From: Gammaproteobacteria bacterium
GTDB lineage: Bacteria; Pseudomonadota; Gammaproteobacteria; Pseudomonadales; Pseudohongiellaceae
Assembly (NCBI GenBank): GCA_947458495.1
Contig: CANHAR010000002.1
Coordinates: 1-34,980, forward strand
Reading direction: 5' to 3'
DNA: 34,980 nucleotides
A model generated the notes under the pieces. That model did not search any database. It had not been told where the DNA came from and was given only the letters and a program-made list of their open reading frames with translations. The translations under genes were made by a program, and so were the position numbers. Below are positions 12,124 to 24,888 of this stretch, one piece after another; position 1 is the first letter of the stretch; every line of letters begins with the position of its first letter.

Positions 12124-13227
12124 CTACAGTCGAATCACATGCCCCTCCTGCGGCGTCACACCACCCGCCAGCAACTGCGCAAACACCTGCTGCGCCGCGT
12201 CAAGGCCGTGACCCTCAACGATCCTGAGCAACTCCCGTTGTGGATCATTAACGTGAGCACCAAAACGCGACCAGGCATTGCCCAGCTGCTCGCCAAAGGT
12301 CTGTGCACCCCACTCCGCCGTGCGTTTGAGAATCTGCTCGGGCGCAAAGAAAAACGTCGGTGCTGGTCCGGGTAGCGTTTGTTTTTTGGGCACCTGTCCC
12401 GGCAAAACCACCGTCTGCGCCGAGCCCACCACACAGCTATACCTCAGCTCACGGCAATGATGGTGAATGGCACTACGCAGCTCGCGATCACCCGAGAAAT
12501 CCACATACAGCGTGGGCATCTCAGCATCCAGCGTGTCCAGTTCCGCATACGTCAGCGTATGCCGGTAACAACCAGAGCCGGCCACAAAATCACGATTACG
12601 TTCCGACGTCAGACCAATGGTTTCCACCGCGTCGCCAATACAAAAACCCGTACCGTAAGCCGTCTTGCTGGACGCACTCGAGATCACCACCCGCTCCGCG
12701 CCAAACCAGTTGTTGTCCGCCAGAAAGTCAGCCAACGTAAATGAGGTGATAAACAGCGGCCGGTAGATCGCCTGAAATGCCTCGCTGCTTGCGGTGTACA
12801 GCGGATCAACATCACAACGCACATACTGATTGTAAGCCGCCGGCAAGGCCTGACGATGTGCCGTGCCATCACGGAATCCCCGCTTGCCCACATTCGCGGC
12901 CTGCACACGCAACACACTCGCCGGCGGAAAATAACCATAGAAGCGCTCACCCTCACTGATACCCTCAACCGCCGACGCCACCACATTGGCAAAACCCCAT
13001 ACCGGCACCAGTCCCCAATCTGCATCGTCGGTGGGGAAGAAGTCCCAGTAGCGCATGGCTGCGCCGTAGGCGGCGTAGGTTACGTTGTTGGTGGTCAGGG
13101 AGAACAGATCTGGGGCCAGGAGGAGTTCGCCTGGGGCAAGTGTTGCTGGTGGTGGCTGATTGTCGATACAGATCTGGGTTAAGACTTGTTTGTTGATTAG
13201 CAGTCGGGCGTGGGGGTGTTGGGGCAT
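12124..13227 (-). CDS. DUF2855 family protein
   Basis: 'YAAYGAAMRYWDFFPTDDADWGLVPVWGFANVVASAVEGISEGERFYGYFPPAS' and 'VVISSASSKTAYGTGFCI' typical of DUF2855; start at MPQHPH with CAGGAAA upstream. Confidence 0.9.
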   Translation of the reverse strand: MPQHPHARLLINKQVLTQICIDNQPPPATLAPGELLLAPDLFSLTTNNVTYAAYGAAMRYWDFFPTDDADWGLVPVWGFANVVASAVEGISEGERFYGYFPPASVLRVQAANVGKRGFRDGTAHRQALPAAYNQYVRCDVDPLYTASSEAFQAIYRPLFITSFTLADFLADNNWFGAERVVISSASSKTAYGTGFCIGDAVETIGLTSERNRDFVAGSGCYRHTLTYAELDTLDAEMPTLYVDFSGDRELRSAIHHHCRELRYSCVVGSAQTVVLPGQVPKKQTLPGPAPTFFFAPEQILKRTAEWGAQTFGEQLGNAWSRFGAHVNDPQRELLRIVEGHGLDAAQQVFAQLLAGGVTPQEGHVIRL

Positions 13228-13331
13228 GGTGTTTTCCTGTTGCTGGGATTTTTGTCTGTTGTTCATTCTGAAAGAATACTCCATGTTTCGGAAACTTTAG
13301 CTGGGCTGAATTGAATATCTAACACTTATCG

Positions 13332-13550
13332 CTAATCATCCCCTTCAAGTTTCATATCCCCTTCGAATTGCGTAACGGCAGCCGTTTTCATAACGAGCGA
13401 TAAAAATTCTTCGTACGAAAAATGAGTAGTTTTAAACCTTGTGTATTCAGCTACCGCCTGTTTACAATCGGTTACATTACTGGTTTCGGTATGAGCTGTA
13501 GTGATCATTCGTGCAGGTGGGTTAGAAAATCGTTCTTGCTCACTGTTCAA
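13332..13550 (-). CDS. hypothetical small protein (uncertain)
   Basis: 72-aa ORF (TTG start, or internal ATG), hydrophilic; no recognised family. Confidence 0.3.
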   Translation of the reverse strand: MNSEQERFSNPPARMITTAHTETSNVTDCKQAVAEYTRFKTTHFSYEEFLSLVMKTAAVTQFEGDMKLEGDD

Positions 13551-13552
13551 CT

Positions 13553-13560
13553 GTTAGGGC
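13553..13560 (+). other. integron core-site-like sequence (GTTAGGGC) at the start of the FRG cassette
   Basis: Identical to the R' core at 14387-14394; FRG gene ATG begins 10 bp downstream. No matching R'' box found upstream. Confidence 0.4.
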
Positions 13561-13570
13561 GAGCTTAGAC

Positions 13571-14269
13571 ATGATCGAGATCAAAATTGAATCTTTTGAG
13601 AGCTATCACCGAGAGGTCGTCCTTAAGTTCTCACTTGGCGCCCTATATCGTGGCGTGACGAACAAGAACCATGAGTTGATTCCATCCGTTGGAAGGTATT
13701 TGCCTGATTATCAGAAGAATGGAAGAGACAAATCCAAGTTGTTGAACCATGAGCGATTCGCATTGGAGATATTCGAGAAGGATTCGGCAGGTTTTCTCCC
13801 TAGTAAAGTTTCTGATCCGTGGGAGCTTATAGTCCTCGCTCAGCATCATGGGCTACCAACAAGGCTGCTGGACTGGACGCATAATCCGCTCGTTGCGCTC
13901 TTCTTTGCAGTGCAGTCGAATGATGACACCGATGCAGCGGTATATGCCTTGGAGGCAGGAGTTGTTCTGGATGTTATGGATACTGGAGAGCTTGGAAAGC
14001 ATCCCTTGGAACTCCAAGAAACACGGCAGTTAGTTCCGAACAGTTCTTCTCCTCGGATCTCTGCTCAGTCGAGCGTGTTCACTGTCCATGCTCAACCCAC
14101 AGATCCATGGACAGCTTCCGGGATGAAGAAGCTCACCATCCCTAAGGAGCAGAAGATGCAACTGAGGGCTGTTCTCTACAAATACGGCGTATCCTCAAAA
14201 AAGCTATTCCCCGGGCTGGATGGCATAGGGCGTACAGTTCGCTATCTGAAATTTGGAGGCCAAGCTTGA
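13571..14269 (+). CDS. FRG domain-containing protein
   Basis: 'ALYRGVTNKNHELIPSVGRYLP...HERFALEIFEKDSAGFL...WELIVLAQHHGLPTRLLDWTHNPLVALFFAV' matches the FRG domain pattern. Confidence 0.9.
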   Translation: MIEIKIESFESYHREVVLKFSLGALYRGVTNKNHELIPSVGRYLPDYQKNGRDKSKLLNHERFALEIFEKDSAGFLPSKVSDPWELIVLAQHHGLPTRLLDWTHNPLVALFFAVQSNDDTDAAVYALEAGVVLDVMDTGELGKHPLELQETRQLVPNSSSPRISAQSSVFTVHAQPTDPWTASGMKKLTIPKEQKMQLRAVLYKYGVSSKKLFPGLDGIGRTVRYLKFGGQA

Positions 14270-14278
14270 AGCCAGAAG

Positions 14279-14394
14279 GCGCTAACAAAAAGCTCATGTC
14301 GGACGCAGCAGACTACGAAGTAGCCACGTATGGCTTCGCCATTTTATGCGTAGCTACCGCTCCGCTACTGCACCGCATAGCTTGGCGTTAGGGC
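14279..14394 (+). other. attC-like site (integron cassette recombination site)
   Basis: R'' GCGCTAAC (14279-14286) complementary to R' GTTAGGGC (14387-14394); inner L-like boxes AAGCT (14290-14294) and AGCTT (14379-14383); symmetry continues (CATGTCGGACGCAG vs ATGCGGTGCAG); 116 bp; next ORF starts 3 bp after the core. Confidence 0.7.
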
Positions 14395-14396
14395 CC

Positions 14397-15146
14397 ATGA
14401 ATCAAATCTCCAATAGCTGGCAAGTACAAATTCAAGGTTGCAAATCTGACCTAGATCATCTTGCGCGCCACTTTGTATCCTCACCGTACCGAATTTCGGT
14501 TGATGAGCGAGGTGATGGTTTTGTTTTTTTGTCGGATTCGTTTTTGGCTTGTCAAACCTCCCAACAGGTGCTGAAACTCGCGAATGAAGAGTTGACTGTA
14601 CTATCTGGAGTGTTACGGGTAACCCTCAGGTCACCTGAGCCATTACGCGCAGGAGCCGTGTATAAATGCAACGCATCTGGTGGAAGAGATGTCTTCGTCC
14701 ACATTCACGAGGGAGTCCAAACTCGCGCAGAGTTTGGAGAGGTTACTGTCACAGTTACTGGTGCAAATGGCAACATTATCACCATGCCAGCTCTTCCTCC
14801 TAGAACAGTGTCCATTGCTCAACTTGCCTCAACTGACATTGCCGTTACAAAGGCCATGCGCTTAATTGCGTTGCCAGACCACAAAACTTGGGTTGGCATG
14901 TATCGAATTTTCGAAGTTATTGTGAGCGATGTGGGAGGTGAGCGCATTATAAAGAGGCGCGGCTGGGGGTCAGCTCAAGACTTGAATCGGTTCAAGCATT
15001 CTGCAAATTCAGTTGCTGTTGCGGGTGATTCTGCGCGGCATGGCAAAGAAAAGGACGAGCCCCCTAGGAAACCTATGTCGTTAGTTGAGGCTTCGGCGTA
15101 TTTGAATAATATCTTGCACTTGTGGTTGTCGTCGAAAGGTGTGTAA
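14397..15146 (+). CDS. hypothetical cassette-borne protein
   Basis: 249-aa ORF MNQISNSWQVQIQGCKSDLDHLARHF...; track start (14346) lies inside the attC-like site. No family assigned. Confidence 0.75.
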   Translation: MNQISNSWQVQIQGCKSDLDHLARHFVSSPYRISVDERGDGFVFLSDSFLACQTSQQVLKLANEELTVLSGVLRVTLRSPEPLRAGAVYKCNASGGRDVFVHIHEGVQTRAEFGEVTVTVTGANGNIITMPALPPRTVSIAQLASTDIAVTKAMRLIALPDHKTWVGMYRIFEVIVSDVGGERIIKRRGWGSAQDLNRFKHSANSVAVAGDSARHGKEKDEPPRKPMSLVEASAYLNNILHLWLSSKGV

Positions 15147-15150
15147 TGCG

Positions 15151-15235
15151 GTCTAACAAACAGAACAACTACGAGCCTTCGGCGCGGGCCGCAACGTGCC
15201 GCTGCGGCCGTCTTCATGGGCGATATTCGGTAGAC
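15151..15235 (+). other. degenerate attC-like site
   Basis: R''-like GTCTAAC (15151-15157) and R'-like GGTAGAC (15229-15235, one mismatch from GTTAGAC), internal hairpin GGCCGCA/TGCGGCC; L boxes not convincing. Confidence 0.4.
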
Positions 15236-15257
15236 TGAGCGCCAAAGAGAGAACCGC

Positions 15258-16174
15258 ATGAAGAACGAAAATCTATTTGATTTCGACGGGAAACAGAGTT
15301 ATCACGCTTCGTGGAGAGCAATTTCCGAGGCAAAGGAATCTGATAAAAGAGAGATTTGTAATAATCTATACTCGAAGTTCAAGAATTTTTCTGACAATGA
15401 TTTTAAAAAAAATTTAAGTTAGAGTTTTTCCCTGCTTTTTGGGAGATGGATCTCGCATGCACGTTACTTGATAGTGGTTTTAAACTCTCAGAAGAACACA
15501 GTGGGAATGAGGGCCCTGATTTATGTGTAATCAACGATCAGGGAAATCGTATTTGGATCGAAGCGATCTGCGCTACAAGAGGAATAACATTGGATAAGGT
15601 TTCAATAGGTGAGCCCGGCCAAGCTCTATCCATTGATAGTGAAAGAATTATGCTCAGGTTAACTAGCGCTATTGCACAAAAAAGTAAAGTGCATAAATGC
15701 TATCTGGAGAAAGGTATATGCAGAAAGGATGAGCCATTCATCATTGCAGTCAACGGTTCGCTTCTCACACCGGGGCCGGGACTCGACGATTGTACACCCA
15801 GGATCGTAAAAGTAGTATTTGAAGGTGGGCGGAATGAAGTTATCTTTGACAAAATCACAGGCCAAATAGAAAGAAAACAAATTGAATATCGCCCAGGAAT
15901 ACATAAACACAACAACAGTCCGGTTAATCTGAACTTCTTTCGAATAAAAGAATTTGAAAATGTTAGCGCCCTACTATTTTCGGAGAGCTCCTTATGGTCA
16001 AGGCCTTGTGAAACTGGCAGTGATTATATAACGGTTCATAACCCATTAGCGGCCAATCCGCTGGCCGAAGGTCTTTTCCAGTTTGGATCGGAATTCATAC
16101 TGGAACATAGTAAAGGCGAGCGCGAATTCCTTAAAATGAATAGCTATCGGAGATTCGAATTTCTATATGAATAA
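15258..16174 (+). pseudogene. restriction-endonuclease-like (PD-(D/E)XK-like?) protein, reading frame interrupted at an A8 tract
   Basis: Frame from ATG 15258 runs MKNENLFDFDGKQSYHASWRAISEAKESDKREICNNLYSKFKNFSDNDFKKNLS*; the -1 frame continues KKFKLEFFPAFWEMDLACTLLDSGFKLSEEHSGNEGPDLCVINDQGNRIWIEAICATRG... to 16174. One extra A, or a -1 slip at A8 (15405-15412), would join them. Confidence 0.6.
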
Positions 16175-16389
16175 GATAGCTGTTTGGCAAAAAAAAGCTG
16201 CTAGACTGACGCCAAAACTACGCGTTTTTGTGTTACTCGCTTCGCTTAAACAATAACTCGGGTTCTACCTCGATTTTACGGACACTTCAGAAAAGCCACT
16301 AGACTTACCCCAATACTGCAGCGGGGCAAGTCCAAAAAGTTGTCTGTGAAAGCAGGTTAGAACCCCACACTAATTTTACGAGTACCACC

Positions 16390-18090
16390 ATGATTCGTTT
16401 ACTGACCCATCTGTTGGGCCCTTCTCGAACCGCCACCCCCAGGCTTTTCACTACCGCACTCCTACTCATCCTCACATCCACCCAACCCCTCATCGCCGCC
16501 ACCAACGACCAACCATTTGCCGTGCTGGAAGCAAGCATTCCCGAGATGCAACGAGCCATGGAATCCGGCCAGATGACCTCCCGTGAACTGGTAGAACAGT
16601 ATCTGATTCGTATCGCGCTCTACGAGGAACGGGTTAACGCGGTGATCGCGGTCAATCCGAATGCGTTGGCAGAGGCTGACCGGCTCGACGCAGAACGCGC
16701 TGCGGGACAGGTACGTGGGCCGCTTCATGGCATTCCCGTTGCCCTGAAGGACAATATCCATACCACCGACATGCCGACCACCGGCGGCGCGCTGGTGTTC
16801 CGGGATTTTGTGCCGCCCTATGAGGCCACGCTGACCACCAATCTGCGCAACGCGGGTGCCATCATTATGGCCAAGACGGTGATGACTGAACTGGCTAATT
16901 TTCTCGGGTCTGGCATGCCGGGCAACTATAGTGCGATTGGCGGCTATGGGCTGAACCCTTACGATCCCCGTCGTGACCCGCGGCAAGGTTTGGATGATGG
17001 CAGGCCGGTGATGGGGGTGGGTGGTTCGAGTTCGGGCATCGGCACGGCCATGAGTTTCTGGGCGGCCAATGTGGGCACGGAAACCTCAGGCTCAATCCTC
17101 TCTCCCGCCAACGCCAATATGCTGGCGGCCATCAAGCCAACGGTTGGGAGGATAAGCCGCTGGGGAATCATTCCCATCACCGCCGATCAGGACACTGCGG
17201 GGCCGATGGCGCGCTCGGTGACGGATGCCGCTATCATGTTGGGGGTGCTGGAGAGCATGGAACCTGATCCTCGTGATGCGGCAAGCAGCCGTTGTGAGGC
17301 GCCGGTCAACAACGATTACACGCCCCATCTGCAGGCCGATGGTTTGCGAGGCGCGCGGATTGGTATACCCAGAGCGTTTTACTACGATCAGGCACAAGTC
17401 CCCGGCAATGACGAAACCCAGGGCGGCCTGGACGATGAGGCGCGCGCGGTCATGGCGGCAGCCATCGAGGTGTTGCGACAGCAGGGCGCGATTATTGTGG
17501 ACCCCGCCAATATACCCAGCGTTATGGATCAGGATCCGGCGCGCAACCTGCTTGCCAGCCCGCCCAGCAGTGTTCTGTCGTATGGCATGAAACGCGACTT
17601 TAATGCCTGGCTGGCTTCACTGGGAGACATGGCACCTGTGAGTACCCTGACGCAACTGCGGGAATGGAATCTGGCCAATGAAGGTCGGGGAGCAATCCCC
17701 TACGGACAGGCACGCATTGATGAGGCCGATGCACTGGATTTGCTTGAATCGCTTCCCGCCTACCAGAGCGACCGGGCACGCGATCTTTTTGTGAGTGCCG
17801 AACACGGCATAGACGAGGTCATGGCCGAACTAGAGCTTGATGCGCTGTTATTTCCTGGCTCCTCTGGCGCCGGCATAGCGGCAAGGGCCGGCTACCCCAC
17901 GGTCATCGTTCCGTTTAGTCGTGTGGCGAATGCATTAAATCCGCCGCTGCCCGAGGGCTTTAATGCCGAGCCACGCCCCTTTGGTATCAGCTTTAGCGGC
18001 ACGGCCTGCAGCGAAGCCCGACTGATCGAGCTGGCGTATAGTTTTGAGCAGGCGACGCGTGCGCGGATTGCGCCGGTGGATTTTCCTTGA
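16390..18090 (+). CDS. exported amidase (amidase signature family)
   Basis: Signal-like N-terminus; 'LHGIPVALKDNIHTTDMPTTGGA', 'VGGSSSGIGTAMSFWAANVGTETSGSILSPANANMLAAIKPTVGRISRWGIIPI' amidase signature. Confidence 0.95.
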   Translation: MIRLLTHLLGPSRTATPRLFTTALLLILTSTQPLIAATNDQPFAVLEASIPEMQRAMESGQMTSRELVEQYLIRIALYEERVNAVIAVNPNALAEADRLDAERAAGQVRGPLHGIPVALKDNIHTTDMPTTGGALVFRDFVPPYEATLTTNLRNAGAIIMAKTVMTELANFLGSGMPGNYSAIGGYGLNPYDPRRDPRQGLDDGRPVMGVGGSSSGIGTAMSFWAANVGTETSGSILSPANANMLAAIKPTVGRISRWGIIPITADQDTAGPMARSVTDAAIMLGVLESMEPDPRDAASSRCEAPVNNDYTPHLQADGLRGARIGIPRAFYYDQAQVPGNDETQGGLDDEARAVMAAAIEVLRQQGAIIVDPANIPSVMDQDPARNLLASPPSSVLSYGMKRDFNAWLASLGDMAPVSTLTQLREWNLANEGRGAIPYGQARIDEADALDLLESLPAYQSDRARDLFVSAEHGIDEVMAELELDALLFPGSSGAGIAARAGYPTVIVPFSRVANALNPPLPEGFNAEPRPFGISFSGTACSEARLIELAYSFEQATRARIAPVDFP

Positions 18091-18215: not shown

Positions 18216-19153
18216 ATGCCCAAAGGGAAAACATCGCAATCTCTGCAAATCCGCAACAGCACTGCTGAATTCTTGATCTTCACGGCTCAGGCTGGTGAAG
18301 GCAGCATTGAGGTACGGGTGGAGGATGAAACCGTCTGGTTGACTCAGAAGCTGATGGCGGAGTTGTTTGGTGTCGACGTCAGAACCGTCAGCGAGCACCT
18401 GCAAAACATACTTAAAAACAACGAACTGGAAGAGGATTCAGTTATCCGGAAATTCCGGACAACTGCCGCCGATGGCAAACAATACAACACCCAGTTCTAC
18501 AACCTCGACGCCATTATCTCAGTAGGCTACCGCGTCAATTCCACCCGTGCTACCCAATTCCGCCAATGGGCGACCGGCATCCTGCGCGAGTTTGCCATCA
18601 AGGGTTTTGTGCTGGACCGGAAGCGATTGGAAAATGGCAGTTTTCTGGGCGAGGATTATTTTGAACGCCTGCTGGAAGAAATTCGCGAGATTCGCCTAAG
18701 CGAACGCAGGTTTTACCAGAAGATTGCCGATATTTATGCAACCAGCATGGATTACAGAAAAGATGCTGAACTGACCCAGCAGTTTTTTGCCAAAGTCCAA
18801 AACAAACTGCACTACGCCATTCACGGCAGCACGGCAGCGGAGTTGGTGATGGCGAGGGCCGATGCTGACAAAGAACACATGGGGCTGACCAGCTGGGAAA
18901 AAGCACCTGACGGGAAAGCATGGCCTTGCGAAAAATGCCAATGACCATGGAAGATTGGGCGACAAAACTTGATGCGTTTTTGCAATTTAATGAGCAGGAT
19001 ATTCTGGATGCCTCAGGCAAGGTCACCGCAGAGGTCGCCAAGGCATTTGCGCTGACAGAATTTGAAAAATACAGGATTGTGCAGGATCGTTTGTTCAGAT
19101 CGGACTTTGACAAAATGCTGGAAAGTCTGCCGACACTAGACCCCGAAAAATAA
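18216..19153 (+). pseudogene. RhuM family (virulence RhuM) protein with internal out-of-frame deletion
   Basis: 18216-18944 encodes the RhuM N-terminal part (EVRVEDETVWLTQKLMAELFGVDVRTVSEHLQNI...MGLTSWEKAPDGKA) then runs out of frame; 18920-19153 encodes the C-terminal part (MALRKMPMTMEDWATKLDAFLQFNEQDILDASGKVTAEVAKAFALTEFEKYRIVQDRL). The expected intervening segment is missing. Confidence 0.75.
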
Positions 19154-24018: not shown

Positions 24019-24438
24019 TCAGAAACGGTTCCGCCCCCAACGCAGGTATTCACCGGCAGTCATGGCAATGTTGGGAAAAGTCTGAATTAATTTTTGATCG
24101 CTGGTAATCAGTTTCAAGCTCAGTGATGTCGCCAAGGACACAAACTCACAGTCACATGCTGAGCAACCAGACTGTTGAGCCAACCTTAAAACATCCATTG
24201 AGTTGACCGTATATTCATTATCCGCAAGCTGTTGTTCCGCTTGCGCTTGAATCGCGATCGCCGTGCTCAGATCGATGATGCTTTTTCTGACATACATCGC
24301 CAATACGTTACGCAATTCGCTTCGCCAGAGTAATGGAGCAATCCACTGTGAATCGATGTGCAGTAATGAAACAACATTGTCGGTTTGATCCGTAGGCAGA
24401 TACAGGTACGCAATGGTATTCGTGTCCGTTACGATCAT
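24019..24438 (-). CDS. PIN domain (VapC-like) toxin
   Basis: 'MIVTDTNTIAYLYLP', 'WIAPLLWRSELRNVLAMY', 'CSACDCEFVSLATSLSLKLITSDQKLIQTFP' PIN acidic residues; paired with the upstream antitoxin. Confidence 0.88.
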   Translation of the reverse strand: MIVTDTNTIAYLYLPTDQTDNVVSLLHIDSQWIAPLLWRSELRNVLAMYVRKSIIDLSTAIAIQAQAEQQLADNEYTVNSMDVLRLAQQSGCSACDCEFVSLATSLSLKLITSDQKLIQTFPNIAMTAGEYLRWGRNRF

Positions 24439-24677
24439 TCTCTTCCCTGATGAATGGCTGCATTGATTTCAGCAGTGTCCAATCGTTCAACGGTGACTCT
24501 GTTACGCAGTGCTTGCGCTTTCTCGGCCAGCTCAACTGCGGAGGCACGCATGGGTTTGAATGTTTTTTCCAAACAATAAATCAGCTCACTGTTCACGCTT
24601 CTGTGGTGAGTGCTAGCCGCTTGTCTAAGTTTCTCGTACAAGTCGTCGGGGATGTTTTTAAACGTGACCGTTGCCAT
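24435..24677 (-). CDS. FitA/Arc-like ribbon-helix-helix antitoxin
   Basis: MATVTFKNIPDDLYEKLRQAASTHHRSVNSELIYCLEKTF; 4-bp overlap with the PIN gene; start at ATG 24677 (track start 24752). Confidence 0.88.
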   Translation of the reverse strand: MATVTFKNIPDDLYEKLRQAASTHHRSVNSELIYCLEKTFKPMRASAVELAEKAQALRNRVTVERLDTAEINAAIHQGRE

Positions 24678-24702
24678 CAGCAAGCCTCCGTTCTTTAACA
24701 GT

Positions 24703-24730
24703 GGTTTCATAATGGTTTCATTATGGTTTC
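24703..24730 (-). promoter_or_regulatory. candidate operator: 11-bp direct repeats upstream of antitoxin
   Basis: GGTTTCATAAT / GGTTTCATTAT / GGTTTC- in tandem with 11-bp period. Confidence 0.5.
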
Positions 24731-24888
24731 CTTGGCGATTGATAGTCAACAACCTATCCGGCTAATACCATAGTTGGGCTTTTAAGCAGTTTCAGAATTT
24801 TTGGTGGGCTGACGCCTCCCGTGAGCAGCGCCGAGAGGTACAAACGGTTTTCCTGTAGCGCTGGCTTAGGGCGTACTAGCAGTCCGCC

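Follow-up and report, generated by a model that had tools for sequence, protein, structure and literature searches.

A cassette platform in a Pseudohongiellaceae genome that probably starts at an orphan attI site, with no integrase gene beside it

The window analysed here is a stretch of 34,980 nucleotides (contig CANHAR010000002.1) from a gammaproteobacterial MAG of the family Pseudohongiellaceae (G000; 2.7 Mb, 85% complete). Between a DUF2855 gene and an amidase gene, it holds a leader and three cassettes (Table 1), the first of which begins exactly where the leader ends. The last two cassettes are decayed, as judged from the succession of one full attC site, one degenerate site beginning 4 bp past the stop codon of cassette 2, and one attC fragment of 61 bp. 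For the protein of cassette 2, no relative was found in the contigs of the compared genomes. In the gene of cassette 3, the frame changes close to an A-run at about 15410, which reflects either decay or a sequencing error. The same DUF2855 gene adjoins the platform in G013, G009, G010, G011 and G006. The sister genomes with this locus are recorded as Pseudohongiella sp., one of them being the isolate LSUCC0112; the record of G013 (CALQJO020000002.1) is labelled Rhodoferax sp. OV413, apparently in error, its genes and kinship being Pseudohongiella-like.

Table 1. Features of the cassette platform and its flanks (positions within the window; E-values of R1 and R2, our own attC and attI models, are rough)
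Feature	Position	Strand	Evidence
Left chromosomal flank, DUF2855 gene	12124–13284	-	Pfam PF11017, E=1.7e-105
Leader, ~220 bp, ending at the attI crossover	13338–13560	+	Copies with 78–80% identity: G000:C20, G000:C3, G013
Putative orphan attI, recombination point CAACTG^TTAGGG at 13553/13554	13475–13556	+	R2 70 bits, pairwise similarity, sister-species breakpoint
Cassette 1 gene, FRG-domain protein, PADLOC candidate defence family PDC-S15	13571–14269	+	Pfam PF08867, E=5.7e-23; PADLOC, E=9.4e-65
attC of cassette 1	14279–14394	+	R1 29.4 bits, E=9.1e-6; fold
Cassette 2 gene, 249 aa	14397–15146	+	No Pfam or PADLOC match
Degenerate attC of cassette 2, R' lost	15151–15228	+	8.4 bits, E=0.62 (filters off); mainly position
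Cassette 3 gene, frame broken near 15420	15259–16174	+	3' ORF 15446–16174 resembles PADLOC PD-T7-5/PD-T7-1, E=7e-11 and 1e-8
attC fragment of cassette 3, arms lost	16197–16257	+	As much as 90% identical to attCs in the G014 array, which bears intI
Right chromosomal flank, amidase gene	16390–18090	+	Pfam PF01425; kept in G005, G006, G010, G011 and G013 at 89–94% identity

Three further features lie downstream of the array. A repeat of ~38 bp at 16260–16297 recurs in many genomes of the genus (85–97% identity) and is perhaps the end of an insertion sequence. A RhuM-family gene (18216–18944; Pfam E=3e-75, PADLOC candidate PDC-S05) covers only the first ~60% of the Pfam model and is probably truncated. 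At 24019–24752, two overlapping minus-strand ORFs were judged by eye to be toxin–antitoxin-like, with a PIN-like and a small DNA-binding-like member.

The integron integrase IntI recombines attC sites as a folded bottom strand. At the attC of cassette 1, a preliminary description had made out an imperfect palindrome with R- and L-type arms, placed between two co-oriented genes and ending in an R' that departs from GTTRRRY, and each of these points holds. The sequence and the arms are as described; the site stands between the stop codon of the FRG gene (14267–14269) and the ATG of the next gene, in the orientation of the array; and the R' reads GTTAGGG, with a final G in place of Y, an ending shared by one attC of G014, from its intI-bearing array. 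The covariance search and the bottom-strand folding proposed there likewise came out in favour of an attC. Covariance model R1, trained on 30 aligned attCs, all from intI-bearing arrays of other genomes, and showing covariation at paired columns, gave a single match in the 35-kb window, at 14280–14393, and returned it with the same score when the filters were off. When the bottom strand is folded, the R and L arms pair and one G, flanked by CAT and AGCTT, stays extrahelical; the fold energy is not exceptional for the composition (z=-1.57) and is uninformative as an attC test. A home-made arm-pairing scan of the window gave one match on the plus strand and none on the minus strand, with zero to one in shuffled windows, and an Rfam scan returned tRNA only, with nothing at this site. 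In G013, an attC 73% identical to that of the window is accompanied by other genes. Judged by the R1 match, the canonical form of the R and L arms and the extrahelical base, the site is to be regarded as a true attC.

The leader is a recurrent element. G000 has further copies at C20 (beside a tRNA-Arg gene) and at C3, G013 has one at the corresponding locus, and in all of them conservation ends at CAAYTG^TT and is followed each time by another gene. The three sites of G000 have only ~208 bp of leader in common, and the length shared between attI copies ranges from 160 to 260 bp. In the integrons of G014 and G011, the attI is, by position, the segment that separates intI from the first cassette, and the last ~80 bp of the leader resemble it (z=7.1 for G014 and z=4.6 for G011; none of 500 shuffles was as good). 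A ATACAAAT^GTTA core is common to six integrons of the family and is present in the intI-adjacent attIs of G029, G072, G023 and G108. The score of R2, an attI profile built from nine sites, at 13475–13556 is not independent, since the window's own leader was part of the training set; independent support for this attI comes from the pairwise test and from the breakpoints between relatives, where the first cassette joins at G^TT and the differences are cassette-precise. The neighbour of the site is DUF2855 rather than intI, and no intI remnant is present; we thus use the label “orphan attI”, which is given by homology and junction. That the leader might be a coding remnant of intI was considered and rejected, there being no such similarity, and leader matches in G137 and G153 were judged to be chance, as neither leader nor array is found there. 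Strict scanning of the leader for sigma-70 promoters and terminators yielded nothing, so no cassette promoter is claimed.

Most of the type I attIs, as we call the sites matched by R2, carry a short palindrome ~8–25 bp upstream of the crossover, as intI-adjacent ones typically do; its arms covary between sites (4.66 of 6 pairs matched versus 4.19 when permuted; 0 of 2000 permutations as high). In the attI group to which the window belongs, the palindrome is lost (2–3.5 of 6 pairs, close to what shuffled sequences give), so these sites may be weak or dead.

Such attI sites are dispersed across the genus. At E<1e-3 (rough, as above), R2 detects 36 type I sites in 13 of the 15 genus genomes, 27 of them outside the training set, while over 137 genomes of the family the matches fall in the genus and in only six genomes outside it. 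An intact intI occurs in four of the 15 genus genomes, in one copy each; it adjoins two of the 36 sites, and an intI fragment or pseudogene adjoins seven. Attached arrays obey one polarity: among 20 extracted type I loci, 16 have attCs, and all 55 attC matches lie downstream on the attI strand, a pattern repeated in a second batch of loci. Other intI genes are accompanied by a second attI type, which is not similar to the first and is scattered in the same way in other genera, with 39 matches in 19 family genomes. This type has a hairpin at the corresponding position too, and most of 19 extracted loci carry attCs, again on the same strand and downstream (46 of 46); G078 combines one complete intI with six further sites of this type. 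In the 99%-complete genome G008, a region on contig C1 (440000–459000; L184) holds about 30 attCs on one strand, and no intI was found in that genome.

Comparison between sister species places the turnover of cassettes at the attI. Eleven pairs of orthologous attI loci, representing about six independent loci, were aligned with the crossover set to zero; in ten of them homology extends to the crossover, give or take a few bases, and then ends (e.g., after 1269 bp at 96.5% for G001/G012 and 1309 bp at 90% for G006/G010), the exception being the tRNA-Arg pair, which diverges 180 bp before it. Between the window and G013, as the preliminary description had proposed to examine, homology ends at the crossover and returns only before the amidase gene, and the cassettes in between differ. 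That description had set against its own reading the lack of an attC covariance match and conservation of the segment without cassette-precise differences in relatives; on both counts the opposite was found, namely the R1 match and cassette-precise differences versus G013. At the window locus, the first cassettes of G000, G013, G009, G010 and G011 are mutually unrelated, the first genes encoding FRG in G000, a ThsB-like TIR protein in G013, an AbiU2-type HEPN protein in G009 and PtuA in G010, while G011 has an insertion sequence at attI. Antiphage-like cassettes at the platforms include FRG, ThsB-like TIR, PtuA, TIR-TPR and HEPN AbiU2. Turnover of such precision is expected from integrase-mediated capture at attI but not from vertical inheritance. 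A search for cassettes common to different platforms of one genome, meant to detect recent movement in trans, returned nothing beyond leaders, overlapping extracts and apparent contig-end repeats.

Three attI loci, G011:C113 (L101), G001:C1 near 2349270 (L158) and G010:C534 (L167), have an insertion-sequence-like sequence whose start coincides with the crossover (ACAAAT^AATGATATGGACGCC), looking as though it targeted attI. The transposase of the G011 element is IS110/IS1111-like by eye. A presumed complete integron of G005 at the window locus was rejected, the DUF2855 gene of G005 lying elsewhere.

The statement that the window lacks an integrase gene is borne out at the genome level: a search of G000 for the integron integrase (TIGR02249) gave no match above the cut-off, with only Xer-like matches on another contig, although, the MAG being 85% complete, the assembly could have missed an intact intI. 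G000 has at least four attI sites, and its sole intI trace, a fragment of 23 codons, lies beside the fourth (C60). Remnants of intI are absent at the window locus, at C20, at C3 and at most other attI sites; fragments adjoin attI at G012:C33 and in G001 (both amino acids 1–174), at G006:C1 (1–181) and at G002:C23 (1–92), and a pseudogene does so at G009:C5. At the window locus, no intI is found in cis in any species examined.

The region 13338–16257 is thus very probably an integrase-less platform of integron cassettes, its attI-bearing leader having been loaded by IntI-mediated recombination. In the proposed mechanism, the leader would sit between the two chromosomal genes, and IntI would recombine circular cassettes into its attI at the crossover, giving the FRG gene with its attC, then a gene followed by the degenerate attC and a disrupted gene followed by the attC fragment. 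IntI would act in trans at each insertion, supplied from another G000 locus while intI was intact there, or from elsewhere. Cassette capture at attI is well supported; that the window attI was served in trans by a distant IntI is what we infer. Given that intI is missing in cis in every species examined, either IntI acted in trans or a local intI was lost early; the former agrees with genomes that combine a single intI with many sites, the latter with the intI fragments at some loci, and the two may both apply. Among the shared leaders, some look like pieces of the intI–attI intergenic region, either copied or left behind. The platform is probably frozen now, as intI in G000 is represented by the C60 fragment only. 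The CALIN-type reading of the preliminary description is therefore supported, in that a real attC stands in a cassette cluster without an integrase, but it is incomplete: the region, far from being otherwise ordinary, is a recurrent cassette platform of the genus that starts at an orphan attI.

A distributed integron, in which, within this family, one integrase gene serves or served many dispersed attIs in trans and the integrase-less arrays are satellites rather than only degraded integrons, has in our estimation not quite an even chance of being the correct account; if true, it would provide several independent cassette platforms per genome. Alternatively, each array could be an ordinary CALIN, the leftover of a complete integron at that very locus that lost its own intI and kept its attI. 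This would have the same attC and attI anatomy and differ only in where the integrase was. The intI fragments and the pseudogene beside some attIs, C60 among them, speak for it; yet most sites, the window locus, C20 and C3 included, have no remnant, the copies have only the leader in common, and many complete integrons per genome would be required where the genus maximum is one intact intI, so that this account is possible but rather doubtful. Insertion at non-classical genomic sites (attG), with the leader as an unrelated repeat, has a precedent in documented cassette insertion of this kind (Loot et al. 2024, as cited in PMC12444791), but attG sites would have only a short core in common, whereas the junction here is a conserved site of 60–80 bp, homologous to intI-adjacent attI, at dozens of loci; it is strongly disfavoured and very improbable. 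A terminator or a regulatory hairpin of another kind between vertically inherited genes, as the place of the palindrome between co-oriented genes and its ordinary fold energy would allow, is scarcely credible in view of the attC model match, the conserved R boxes and the extrahelical base, and is refuted by the sister-species comparison, with its 73%-identical attC beside other genes and its cassette turnover.

Integrons are usually described with a single attI adjoining intI, and CALINs as integron debris. Orphan attIs at many conserved loci, each with a same-strand array, would offer a concrete origin for multi-locus CALINs, and they make the loading of several chromosomal platforms by one IntI testable. 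In our literature search, dispersed orphan attI sites were nowhere described; the subscription literature was incompletely covered and the novelty is thus provisional. Outside class 1, attI sites are poorly described and not detected by IntegronFinder, according to its authors (PMC9024848); such attIs would be missed elsewhere, since standard software is not looking for them.

Compared with known systems, the window array resembles the CALINs of IntegronFinder in having attC-bearing cassettes with no intI nearby; it differs in beginning at a recognisable attI and, with one full site, one degenerate site and one fragment, in having a single full-length attC, under the default threshold of two. 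With sedentary chromosomal integrons it shares an attI, cassettes in one orientation, attCs with an extrahelical base and turnover at attI; those have one attI next to intI, whereas the window genome has several attIs at separate loci with no intI in cis. In Xanthomonas, CALINs occur at conserved chromosomal loci other than ilvD (PMC12444791), likewise integrase-less arrays at several conserved positions; the part of that report drawn on here names no attI for those loci, whereas the loci of the window genus each have their own. The delta-attI cassettes of mobile integrons (PMC12901181), finally, also carry attI sequence away from its usual place, but there a partial attI replaces the attC at the end of a cassette, whereas here a whole leader with its attI heads a chromosomal array.
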